IMG/VR virus record: IMGVR_UViG_3300047558_000084
Location: 1-44,538 of that record
Direction: 5' to 3' (one strand)
Source of the DNA: a virus
DNA: 44,538 bases
The translations under genes were made by a program, and so were the position numbers. The notes beneath the pieces were generated by a model. That model was given only the letters and a program-made list of their open reading frames with translations, was not told the DNA's origin and searched no databases. Positions within the stretch are counted from its first letter, which is position 1. Each line of letters begins with the position of its first letter. Below, in pieces: positions 1,692 through 4,570 of the stretch.

Positions 1692-1720
1692 TTGACTTGT
1701 GATGGGTTGAGATATATAAT
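1692..1720 (+). promoter_or_regulatory. sigma-70 promoter for the suppressor tRNA and amber gene
   Basis: TTGACT at 1692-1697, a 17-base spacer, and a perfect TATAAT at 1715-1720. The tRNA begins nine bases after the -10 box, so transcription would start almost at the mature 5' end. The same transcript would continue into the gene at 1826. Confidence 0.85.
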
Positions 1721-1728
1721 AGTGACAT

Positions 1729-1804
1729 GCGCTAGATTCTCAATGGCCGAGTAGGCGATTCTAAACCGCTGTTTGTGTGGGTTCGATTCCCACCTAGCGC
1801 ACCA
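1729..1804 (+). tRNA. tRNA with CTA anticodon (predicted amber suppressor)
   Basis: A 76-base class I tRNA with encoded CCA. The acceptor stem GCGCTAG/CTAGCGC (1729-1735 with 1794-1800) is perfect, A1801 is the discriminator, and the T arm is GTGGG-TTCGATT-CCCAC. The D stem is only CTC/GAG (1739-1741 with 1749-1751). The anticodon stem is GGCGA/CCGCT with one G-U and an A-C mismatch at the loop-closing pair. The loop TTCTAAA puts CTA (1761-1763) between U33 and A37, which reads UAG. Other foldings that give a different anticodon break the stem. The amino acid carried cannot be told by eye. The weak D stem and mismatch could mean partial decay. Confidence 0.75.
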
Positions 1805-1825
1805 TTTAACTTAAAGGAAATTAAA

Positions 1826-2389
1826 ATGTCAATGTAGATCCAATATCAATGTAAAGAGCTAGTGTTTCACTTCAACAAGAAACATCTAGAAGACCCATCA
1901 ATCCCTATGTGGGTAATCAAGACACACGGAGTAACCTTCTACGTCAATCACGTATCAGCGGACATTCCATGGTCAACAAAAGAAACGCCTGACAATACGC
2001 ATACTAAGGGAAGTATCAAGTTCAAGCGATGTAAACTGATTCTCGACCCAGAGAATAACGCAACAGTTACAAGTCTCAGTCTATTAGATAAAACCCTACC
2101 ATCACCTAAAGGTAAGCATACACGATTGCTTATGAGAGAAGGCTCGACCTTGTTAGAAGCCCTGCGAAACGGTGAGTTCAAACACACTGAGTTCAAAGAA
2201 GTTGTTGGTGCTTGTCACACTGAGTTTGTTATCTGTGATATGACTGATGAACTTGAGGTCACCGTTGCTCTACTCAAGTACAGTGGCGGATATCGTATCC
2301 TTTCTCCTAACGAACACTACTATCAAGTGTACGATACTAAGCAGTCATGGATAGATGCGATTTTTGATGACGATGAGGATGACGACTAA
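1826..2389 (+). CDS. conserved phage protein with in-frame amber codon near the start
   Basis: AAGGA (1814-1818) lies seven bases before ATG 1826. That frame reads ATG TCA ATG TAG, then ATC CAA TAT and on without a stop to TAA at 2387, giving 187 residues if the TAG at 1835-1837 is decoded. The alternative is a GTG start at 1862 (175 residues) with only a poorly spaced GAG upstream. The body (HFNKKHLEDPSIPMWVIK, then PWSTKETPDN) belongs to a family I recall from T4-like cyanophages, whose members begin near the GTG. The ATG-TCA-ATG-TAG could therefore instead be a minigene whose suppression fuses it to the main frame. The C-terminus is acidic (DDDEDDD). Function unknown. Confidence 0.7.
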
Positions 2390-2414: not shown

Positions 2415-2642
2415 ATGGATATGGATCAAGCAGCCGTCTTTTTGGCAGGCAGTATTTTAACAGCAATGGGTATGATTGTGTTTGTGATTGCTATGGTAGT
2501 CATCAACAACATCATTCACAAATACTGGAAGCCACTAGGTTGGTTCAAATGGAGCGAAAGTATGTTCGGCCCAGTACACTATGTTGAACAAGAGAAAGTA
2601 CCTCCAAGTCTAGAGCCAGAAGGTACAAAGAAAAAGAGTTAA
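2415..2642 (+). CDS. small single-pass membrane protein
   Basis: A 75-residue protein with one long membrane segment (about residues 7-33), then a basic/aromatic stretch (HKYWKPLGWFKW) and a charged cytoplasmic-type tail ending in KKKS. The layout N-terminal helix plus HKYWKP recalls small membrane proteins of T4-like cyanophages (recalled, unverified). The start is supported by AAGGAG nine bases upstream. It is the last gene of the plus-strand island. Its stop overlaps the stop of the convergent gene at 2639 and no terminator is visible between them. Function unknown. Confidence 0.65.
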   Translation: MDMDQAAVFLAGSILTAMGMIVFVIAMVVINNIIHKYWKPLGWFKWSESMFGPVHYVEQEKVPPSLEPEGTKKKS

Positions 2643-2839
2643 CGCTTTCGAGTGGGAGTGTCGGGCTTAGACCACTCCCACTCCATAATGTACATGGTCT
2701 CAAGCGTGTCATTTCTAAATTCTATTTCGATACCCTTGAGACCACCTGTAAACTCCCAATCACGACCGCGTTCGCCGTGAGCACGAAGCCACTTCAATAC
2801 AGTAACGTTATCTGTTGCCCTAAACTTTCTTGTTCTCAT
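2639..2839 (-). CDS. LRW-family paralogue with C-terminal extension
   Basis: A 66-residue protein, last gene of the first LRW array. It keeps the family outline: a tryptophan helix (LKWLRAHGERGRDW), then a charged strand leading to LETMYIMEW, the counterpart of LF-x-LRW. It continues 12 residues further (EWSKPDTPTRKR). The ATG at 2839 overlaps the preceding TGA as ATGA, and the ribosome site GAGGTGG is formed by the preceding gene's LRW codons. Function unknown. Confidence 0.55.
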   Translation of the reverse strand: MRTRKFRATDNVTVLKWLRAHGERGRDWEFTGGLKGIEIEFRNDTLETMYIMEWEWSKPDTPTRKR

Positions 2840-3258
2840 AACCACCTCAATGCGAATAAGGTATTGTCAATGTCATTAGTAAATGCTACTACGATATAGT
2901 CACCGCCTCCCAGTTCATCTATTTGCCACTCGCCATCTCTTCGCCACTCGTCGTCTTTCTTTGACATTCTGTGCCAGTCTAATCGATAGTGACCTGTTAG
3001 ATTTGCTTCGCACCATTTGTCTAATACGTAAACTCCATCAACGCCTATGTCCCAGAAATATACTTCGTGCTTGTGGTTCGTGATCACGTGATACGACTTG
3101 TAGCCATGATAGAATGATGGTAGTGTACTAGCACTCCATCTGATACGTTTGTCGAAGTTTCTATTGTACTCTTTCCAACTGTCGCACAGGTGTTTAGCGA
3201 GAAAACGCCGAGACTTGTACAAGCGCCACGCGGCTCTAATTCTTCCCAGCAACATCAT
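2836..3258 (-). CDS. LRW-family paralogue, long form
   Basis: At 140 residues this is the longest member of the array. It has a basic N-terminal helix (residues 1-40), a middle domain with LDKWCEANL, and the family ending NTLFALRWL. The start ATGATG overlaps the previous gene by 23 bases instead of the usual four, because that gene carries a tail beyond its motif. Its own final codons TTG AGG TGG TTA TGA provide the ribosome site and the overlapping start of the next gene. Function unknown. Confidence 0.6.
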   Translation of the reverse strand: MMLLGRIRAAWRLYKSRRFLAKHLCDSWKEYNRNFDKRIRWSASTLPSFYHGYKSYHVITNHKHEVYFWDIGVDGVYVLDKWCEANLTGHYRLDWHRMSKKDDEWRRDGEWQIDELGGGDYIVVAFTNDIDNTLFALRWL

Positions 3259-3472
3259 ACTTCAATCTGAACCAAGTTGCCCATTCTTCTGAGTAGAATG
3301 TGTACTCGCAGTAACCGCTACGTTGACGCAACCAGTCCATCTCATCAGTTTCAGGTCTGTGCCACTTGAAGTCAAAGTCAATACCTTGTACAAGTCCCTG
3401 ATCTCTAAGGTCATAGATGACTGTTAACGCATCATTAACATTATCATAGTCTATCAGTACTGTATCTATCAT
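3236..3472 (-). CDS. LRW-family paralogue, variant ending
   Basis: A 78-residue protein. The motif is degenerate: EEWATWFRLKY followed by DVAGKN, where LKY occupies the LRW position. The codons of LKYD contain the ATG of the next gene, so the junction geometry is kept although the protein motif has drifted. It ends in TAG, one of only four genes here that do; reading through would add 14 codons before TAA. The ATG at 3472 overlaps the upstream TGA as ATGA. Function unknown. Confidence 0.55.
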   Translation of the reverse strand: MIDTVLIDYDNVNDALTVIYDLRDQGLVQGIDFDFKWHRPETDEMDWLRQRSGYCEYTFYSEEWATWFRLKYDVAGKN

Positions 3473-3693
3473 GCCCACATCAATCTAAAAAGGGTTGCGT
3501 CTGCGTCTTGCTCAAACAACCATAACTGACCAGTGCCTACCCAATCGCTACTAATATTAGCATCGACCCACTCATACAAGATTTCATTGATGGCGCTTTC
3601 GACCGAAATTGTCACTTCCTGCCATCCTTGCTTTCTGCGTTTATAATACGTTTCCCAGAATTCTGGCGCATAATACAAGCCATCGTATCTCAT
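3469..3693 (-). CDS. LRW-family paralogue
   Basis: A 74-residue protein with a tryptophan helix (YEWVDANISSDW) and the ending FEQDADATLFRLMWA. The ATG at 3693 follows GTGGGC and overlaps the preceding TGA; a GTG six bases upstream is possible but less likely given the junction pattern. Function unknown. Confidence 0.6.
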   Translation of the reverse strand: MRYDGLYYAPEFWETYYKRRKQGWQEVTISVESAINEILYEWVDANISSDWVGTGQLWLFEQDADATLFRLMWA

Positions 3694-3935
3694 GCCCACC
3701 TCAAAATGAATAAGGTCAAATCACTTTCGTTTTTGAATCGATACACGCTACGAGAAAAGTGGTGCTCGACTGCCCATATGTCTCGGTTGAGTGTATCTTT
3801 ACACCATTTGTGTGCGTCGATAGTTCTATCATCAAATCTTATCCAGTTATCATCATCTTCTCGTCTTGTGAGTTCTATTGTGTGAATAAGTGTGGCTTGT
3901 CTTCTGTTTTCTCGTCTGCGTTGTTTACTGTTCAT
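3690..3935 (-). CDS. LRW-family paralogue
   Basis: An 81-residue protein with a very basic N-terminus (KQRRRENRRQ), the helix HKWCKDTLNRDIW, and the ending FKNESDLTLFILRWA. The start is ATG 3935 in the ATGA overlap; ATG 3941 is an alternative. Stop context: TTG AGG TGG GCA TGA. Function unknown. Confidence 0.6.
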   Translation of the reverse strand: MNSKQRRRENRRQATLIHTIELTRREDDDNWIRFDDRTIDAHKWCKDTLNRDIWAVEHHFSRSVYRFKNESDLTLFILRWA

Positions 3936-4147
3936 AGCCATCTCAACATGAATAGGAGTAGTTGCTCTTCCGTTTCAAAAATAAATTCATAACCTTCCTT
4001 GTGTCCTCGCCAAAAACATGCCCAACTGCCGTTACGTTCAATAGCTGACCATCTCTCACCAAATGTTTCTTCACACCATTGAGTGATTTCTACTCCCATT
4101 CGCTTAGTATAGTAAACAGAGTAATTGAGGTCTCGCCTTATGCCCAT
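3932..4147 (-). CDS. LRW-family paralogue
   Basis: A 71-residue protein with ITQWCEETFGERW and the ending FETEEQLLLFMLRWL. The ATG at 4147 lies inside the upstream gene's CAA TGG codons, giving a ten-base overlap. This is the one junction where the start moved upstream because the preceding gene ends in TAA, not TGA. Function unknown. Confidence 0.6.
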   Translation of the reverse strand: MGIRRDLNYSVYYTKRMGVEITQWCEETFGERWSAIERNGSWACFWRGHKEGYEFIFETEEQLLLFMLRWL

Positions 4148-4365
4148 TGTAAAATGAATAAGGTTAGCGTGTCGTCATCAGGAATGTTTACAGTCATACC
4201 TAATACCTCACTGCGATTGTCTCGGCACCATGCCACGAGGTCCTCGTAGCGACTGTTCCAATAAGCGATATCTGATAAAAGAATAAGATGATCAAAACTA
4301 TCTTCATAGTCGTTTTCCGTTACAATAAATCTTTTATGGTTCCAATTGTCCATCACAATCGACAT
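4138..4365 (-). CDS. LRW-family paralogue
   Basis: A 75-residue protein with DLVAWCRDN and the ending PDDDTLTLFILQWA (Q in place of R). ATG 4365 lies directly after the upstream TAG; an in-frame ATG at 4386 would overlap the neighbour by 20 bases and is less likely. Function unknown. Confidence 0.55.
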   Translation of the reverse strand: MSIVMDNWNHKRFIVTENDYEDSFDHLILLSDIAYWNSRYEDLVAWCRDNRSEVLGMTVNIPDDDTLTLFILQWA

Positions 4366-4366
4366 A

Positions 4367-4570
4367 CTAGCCCCAACGTAACTCAAAGTGTGTTACGTCA
4401 CGCTCGTCGTCGAACTCAAACTCATACACGCCAGCACTGTAGCCAGCTTGCTCTTGTACGGTTACTAAGTCCCAGGGACCGACGCAGAATTCACCGCACC
4501 AGTCTAAGACTTCATCTAGACCGCCGTACTTGACAAAGATAGTGACCTTATGGTCAGACTTGATTGCCAA
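4367..4570 (-). CDS. LRW-family paralogue, first of array 1
   Basis: A 67-residue protein with VLDWCGEFCVGPWDL and the ending FDDERDVTHFELRWG. No ATG is available. A TTG at 4570, eight bases after GAGGT, gives a start overlapping the end of the dCMP deaminase gene. It ends in TAG; readthrough would add ten codons before TAA. Function unknown. Confidence 0.55.
   Translation of the reverse strand: MAIKSDHKVTIFVKYGGLDEVLDWCGEFCVGPWDLVTVQEQAGYSAGVYEFEFDDERDVTHFELRWG

Follow-up and report, generated by a model that had tools for sequence, protein, structure and literature searches.

The Window Locus and the Product of Its Gene

The locus studied here raises the question of why a phage gene would carry an in-frame amber codon within its first few codons, directly behind a suppressor tRNA whose anticodon matches that codon. 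The window, meaning the whole stretch of DNA that was analysed, is a 44.5-kb virus record whose relatives are jumbo phages. The elements read from its sequence in the original prediction were confirmed. A sigma-70-type promoter, TTGACT-N17-TATAAT, is located at positions 1692–1720 on the plus strand and is near-consensus (11 of 12 positions). ARAGORN identified a single tRNA in the window (1729–1804, plus strand) with anticodon CTA at 1761–1763, an encoded CCA, and A at N73; no other anticodon was obtained, and Rfam model RF00005 scored this tRNA at 39.1 bits against a cut-off of 29. The anticodon-stem pair adjoining the loop is an A–C mismatch in the sequence, which was counted against the gate reading proposed below. 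The end of the −10 box lies 8 nt upstream of the tRNA, a spacing kept exactly in approximately ten relatives; transcription therefore probably begins at the tRNA.

A Shine-Dalgarno sequence, AAGGA (1814–1818, plus strand), which is conserved in homologues, lies 7 nt before the ATG at 1826. The gene (1826–2389, plus strand) starts with ATG TCA ATG TAG ATC and then remains open to a TAA at 2389, giving M-S-M-TAG-IQYQCKELVFHFNKK... with 183 aa after the stop. The early TAG occupies 1835–1837 on the plus strand, and its next base is A (TAG-ATC). Cotranscription of tRNA and gene, which had also been claimed, is supported in the window, where no terminator-like site was found between the two. It did not stand as a principle: tRNA and gene are kilobases apart in many relatives, and cotranscription is therefore a local feature.

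The product contains a conserved N-terminal domain (VFHFNK...W.TKETP; 1838–2074, plus strand) and a C-terminal alpha/beta domain (2114–2314, plus strand) with only a weak ACT/ferredoxin-like resemblance in model m325cd55ca78f. The best Foldseek E value was 0.035 and Z was at most 6.3, mostly over residues 93–170 (the ACT-like part); these scores are weak, and the fold was consequently not interpreted, nor was the lack of other fold matches taken as evidence. The window protein had no match in Pfam, PHROG, or the defence library, PF01981 (PTH2) was not matched, and a sequence search against solved structures returned nothing credible. The N-terminal domain also occurs as a short separate gene, and in phages Phosso and Atu_ph07 it forms the C-terminus of a larger protein encoded two genes behind an early-stop PTH2 gene (L022:2695-3225 and L023:2707-3228). 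Two conserved peptide patterns were used to seek cellular homologues of the window gene in the GTDB genome collection, and none were found.

Conservation of the Early TAG in FHFNK Genes

Relatives of the window gene were collected by two scans of viral contigs, which gathered 88 loci from which duplicates were then removed. The layout counted consisted of a Shine-Dalgarno sequence, an ATG, zero to eight further codons, a stop, and a conserved block ending in C-[KR]-x-x-V-F-H-F-N-K. The stop was TAG in 44 of 44 distinct loci with this layout and never TAA or TGA, many of the loci being related, such that these counts are not independent. The TAG of the window recurs in L001, a nearly identical contig, and in 42 additional distinct loci. 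The number of codons before the TAG varied from one to nine among the 44 homologues, and the ATG and the downstream gene were in one frame in every case. One of the loci with the early TAG belongs to a complete genome from a cultured phage (MN988519; Rhizobium phage RHph_I1_18), in which the tRNA stands directly behind the gene and not before it. A sequencing error at the TAG, which the original prediction had named as a way in which it could fail, was rejected, as the same stop recurs in a contig of 96% identity and in the genomes of cultured phages.

A CTA tRNA was located within a few kilobases around the gene in approximately 30 of the 44 loci, and in G012, G025, and G018 it was found farther off on the same contig. 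In G019, G029, and LR745206, which are partial records or were covered by a limited search pattern, the gated gene was present and a CTA tRNA was not detected.

A Second Gene Family with an Early Stop

An early TAG was also observed in approximately 30 loci of a phage family of PTH2-type peptidyl-tRNA hydrolases, including genes on Bacteroidota-type contigs. In one contig group, the FHFNK gene carries no stop and the preceding PTH2 gene (PF01981) begins with M-x-TAG; a CTA tRNA lies upstream, typically within 100 to 200 nt. Likewise, in L051 the TAG is found before PTH2 and not before the downstream FHFNK gene. Cultured phages with an early-TAG PTH2 gene were XacN1, RAS14, ME3, CBB, GAP32, BF, XbC2, Kaldavass, Arash, pT24, and Phosso. 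The XacN1 and RAS14 genes encode a fusion in which an HD-like domain (Pfam HD below the cut-off only; PHROG 14850) comes ahead of PTH2, and their TAG precedes the HD part. The stop thus stays at the front of the module across gene orders, whether FHFNK, PTH2, or the HD-PTH2 fusion comes first, and is therefore tied to where the module starts, not to a given residue in any single protein. PTH2 and the HD-like domain are fused in both orders, as HD-PTH2 in XacN1 and as PTH2-HD in pT24, and are neighbours elsewhere (L226:3735-4592 versus L302). No PTH2 gene was found in the main-clade genomes G005, G006, G008, and G012.

These genes belong to the phage PTH2 family (PF01981; PHROG 1866, 14850, and 34073) or next to it. 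PF01981 scores were above the cut-off of 23 for L075 (37.9), Phosso (60.6), Atu_ph07 (59.2), and XacN1 (25.3), and below it for CBB (18.8) and RAS14 (21.7). The lysine of the G-K motif, present in human Pth2 and in some ungated phage PTH2 proteins, was kept in Phosso and Atu_ph07 and absent in CBB, ME3, Arash, L075, and the gated XacN1 copy. Since most gated members outside the rhizobial phages lack it, hydrolase activity should not be assumed for them; they may be inactive or have a different substrate. Annotators have shortened or omitted the early-TAG starts of PTH2-type genes. Database entries of the family have starts cut behind the stop, unlike the gated frames described here, and current annotations carry wrong starts for the gated genes in CBB, GAP32, XacN1, Phosso, and Atu_ph07.

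Agreement between Stop Codon and Anticodon

ARAGORN detected a CTA tRNA in all eleven cultured phages with an early-TAG PTH2 gene and in RHph_I1_18. The tRNA of Salmonella phage Arash (L301:2516-2587), annotated as tRNA-Phe, has anticodon CTA according to ARAGORN. The PTH2 gene of Atu_ph07, an orthologue of the Phosso gene (72% identical), has TGA as its early stop (ATG ATT GGC GAA CAC TTT TGA ATT). The only suppressor in this phage is a UCA tRNA at 430713–430787, and no CTA tRNA was found in its 490 kb; the genome paper reports the UCA tRNA and identifies no target for it (PMC6102473). Judging from this pair of orthologues, the early-stop codon and the tRNA anticodon switch together. The dependence of full translation on the suppressor tRNA, a central claim of the original prediction, is thereby supported and very probably holds, with TAG found beside CTA tRNAs and TGA beside a UCA tRNA.

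Among 17 cultured genomes, a matching tRNA was present in 13 of 13 gated and in one of four ungated genomes (one-sided Fisher test, ~0.006, or 4/680, calculated by hand and uncorrected for relatedness). In the ungated RaK2, SCTP-2, and phiM12, the PTH2 gene lacks an early stop, and a pattern search detected neither a CTA nor a UCA tRNA. The fourth, Mycobacterium phage Myrna, is an exception, with a CTA tRNA and a PTH2 whose start lies beyond the stop. Specifically, its PTH2 gene (L151:1470-2043) is preceded by GTG-TAG, the Shine-Dalgarno sequence fits the GTG after the stop, and the gene is followed by the CTA tRNA, annotated as tRNA-Ser. A further exception is G031, in which a CTA tRNA accompanies an FHFNK gene that lacks an early stop. 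In DLP5, where a CTA tRNA is present, an early-TAG gene was sought and none was found. A genome-wide scan for early TAGs without a Shine-Dalgarno filter gave many chance candidates, and therefore only those conserved between genomes were counted.

Readthrough, Restart, and Other Explanations

We considered whether translation passes through the stop or begins again behind it. In the latter case, M-x-TAG would be a translated short leader, and the protein would start after the stop, at GTG 1862 as the original prediction had offered as its alternative, or at a non-AUG codon. The type of stop would then be irrelevant, or it would act by peptidyl-tRNA drop-off, as it does in the lambda bar minigenes. 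The leader is indeed always very short, and PTH2 is the enzyme that clears drop-off products, which makes an autoregulation by minigene thinkable. The sequence after the stop nevertheless argues for readthrough. When the codons near the start were aligned with relatives, homology among FHFNK genes extended right up to the TAG. The column of GTG 1862 was variable (GTG 18, GTA 8, GTC 7, GTT 7, and ATC 3), and the six codons between TAG and GTG 1862 had a pN/pS of 0.49 in 43 sequences, indicative of purifying selection. With this column not conserved and the preceding codons constrained, restart at GTG 1862 is disfavored, and by this measure of selection the codons between TAG and GTG 1862 are translated. 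Other members have AAT, ACC, ACT, or AAA immediately behind the stop, so that the codon there is often no start codon and restart at that point is not general. An indifferent stop also fits poorly with the choice of stop, which was never TAA, although TAA is the most frequent stop in most of these genomes, and was TGA only beside a UCA tRNA. We consequently regard a leader followed by restart, with or without drop-off, as improbable.

The base after the stop was a purine in all of the approximately 70 cases and was mostly A. A purine in this position favors amber suppression in E. coli. No conserved RNA structure was found around the stop in 16 sequences, and the tRNA was the sole Rfam match on the window, where no cis-acting RNA element was reported; a cis-acting RNA element was rejected on these grounds.

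It is more doubtful still that the suppressor tRNA serves to bring a particular, perhaps unusual, amino acid near the N-terminus, in the manner of pyrrolysine or selenocysteine. A dedicated tRNA with dedicated genes would suit such a requirement, and tRNA-finders do label the tRNA "Pyl", a label given from the anticodon alone. The position of the stop, however, varies from codon 2 to about codon 10 and across unrelated proteins, and the region around it is free of the conserved RNA structure that was looked for. The tRNAs are also ordinary in shape, mostly with G1 and with A or G at N73; in the comparison with tRNA-Pyl, the acceptor was seen to be an ordinary one of 7 bp, with two bases preceding the D stem.

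The least probable of these explanations is a recoded genome of the code 15 type, in which TAG would be a plain sense codon and the early TAG one of many. CTA tRNAs are present and TAG stops are scarce, making up 0.7–11% of stops in the genomes read (approximate values from piecewise gene calls by codon score). TAG nevertheless still ends genes, 10 of 385 in G006 and 12 of 186 in RHph_I1_18, which argues against a change of code. Internal TAGs joining two coding stretches were absent from G006, RHph_I1_18, XacN1, and the window, and all 378 kb of CBB contained one, in the HD-like gene behind and adjoining the gated PTH2 (L298:1653-1655, contig 286476; ELDTG-TAG-GD). An internal TAG occupies the same place in Kaldavass, XbC2, GAP32, and BF (L296, L297, L299, and L300), and Arash and ME3 have valine there. 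With TAG still a stop and at most one internal TAG per genome, code 15 was rejected.

A Proposed Suppressor-tRNA Gate

The reading that we prefer, with a probability of roughly 0.86, is a conserved gate: one operon would be licensed by a dedicated suppressor tRNA acting on a start-proximal stop. Comparison of the sequences establishes its groundwork: the conservation and identity of the stop, its place near the start, selection on what follows it, and the match of the anticodon. The phage would transcribe a tRNA that reads UAG (UGA in Atu_ph07). It would also keep one matching stop within about ten codons of the start of a small module related to translation, whose leading gene is FHFNK, PTH2-like, or an HD-PTH2 fusion. 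If the phage tRNA were missing, host RF1 would terminate translation after a few residues and no product would be made; once charged suppressor tRNA had accumulated, ribosomes would read through and make the full protein. In many giant phages, expression of the early-stop gene would thus probably require that the phage's own tRNA be active. If the gate is general, an ochre version pairing TAA with a UUA tRNA might also occur.

That the tRNA is charged and decodes the early stop is inferred from the sequences, as is the timing. The products themselves, PTH2-like and HD-like proteins, together with neighboring tmRNA genes in several loci, suggest a connection to translation. They may act in peptidyl-tRNA or ribosome rescue, and hence the product could report how suppressor and release factor are balanced; the self-monitoring switch put forward in the original prediction is hypothetical. 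Plausible purposes are that rescue functions are switched on in proportion to readthrough or, as another possibility, that the module proteins are delayed until phage tRNAs dominate. It is a tentative step further, and one we would not favor at even odds, to see here a natural class of circuit that measures suppressor charge against release factor and turns on rescue proteins (PTH2-like, HD, and FHFNK) when readthrough does damage, with output proportional to readthrough.

Relation to Known Systems

The closest designed counterpart is the engineered "leak dampener", in which leaky expression is eliminated by an AND gate built from a suppressor tRNA and a target gene carrying a nonsense codon; both amber and opal codons work (PMC7969014). 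That system is synthetic, whereas the gate proposed here would be its natural counterpart, conserved across phages of distant hosts and with the stop fixed at the start of one module. Autoregulation of prfB (RF2) also uses a strictly conserved early in-frame stop and release-factor competition (PMC12421855). There, the stop is UGA, bypass is by +1 frameshift with slippery and Shine-Dalgarno-like signals, and the gene encodes a release factor, whereas in the gated genes the reading frame stays the same, a search for cis signals found none, and the suppressor tRNA would give the bypass. A prfB-type frameshift was rejected, since ATG and gene share a frame in every case and no structure is conserved. 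Genome-wide recoding in phages (PMC9523058, PMC13037316, PMC10879173) likewise involves a phage CTA tRNA and a proposed control of gene timing (Borges 2022 as cited in PMC10879173; Peters 2022, PMC9523058). Code 15 phages use TAG as sense throughout many late genes, whereas in the gated phages TAG is still a stop and one start-proximal codon is kept.

Suppressor tRNAs in phages without a changed code have been a puzzle. Those of XacN1 (PMC5852040), Summit (PMC9022506), Atu_ph07 (PMC6102473), and RsoM2USA (PMC8504454) are of the same kind as here and partly from the same phages. In the parts of these papers covered, the authors of the first two examined readthrough of terminal amber codons and found no target, those of the other two noted many potential targets and named none, and stops at gene starts were not considered, although Atu_ph07 and XacN1 have one. 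The early stop would be a conserved target of the kind sought without success in XacN1 and Summit, and one directly testable in cultured phages. The literature covered excluded preprints and included few subscription papers; within it no conserved start-proximal stop matched to a phage suppressor was described, and so we make no claim of priority.

Two observations concern the surroundings of these loci. Genes for tmRNA were seen in L006, L013, L210, RHph_I1_18, XacN1, G012, G025, and G019, and in L006 and L013 they lie directly upstream of the CTA tRNA. In the window, positions 2639–4570 are occupied by a series of short minus-strand genes that overlap one another; their products share a similar ending (LFxLRW), and the genes are probably tandem paralogues.
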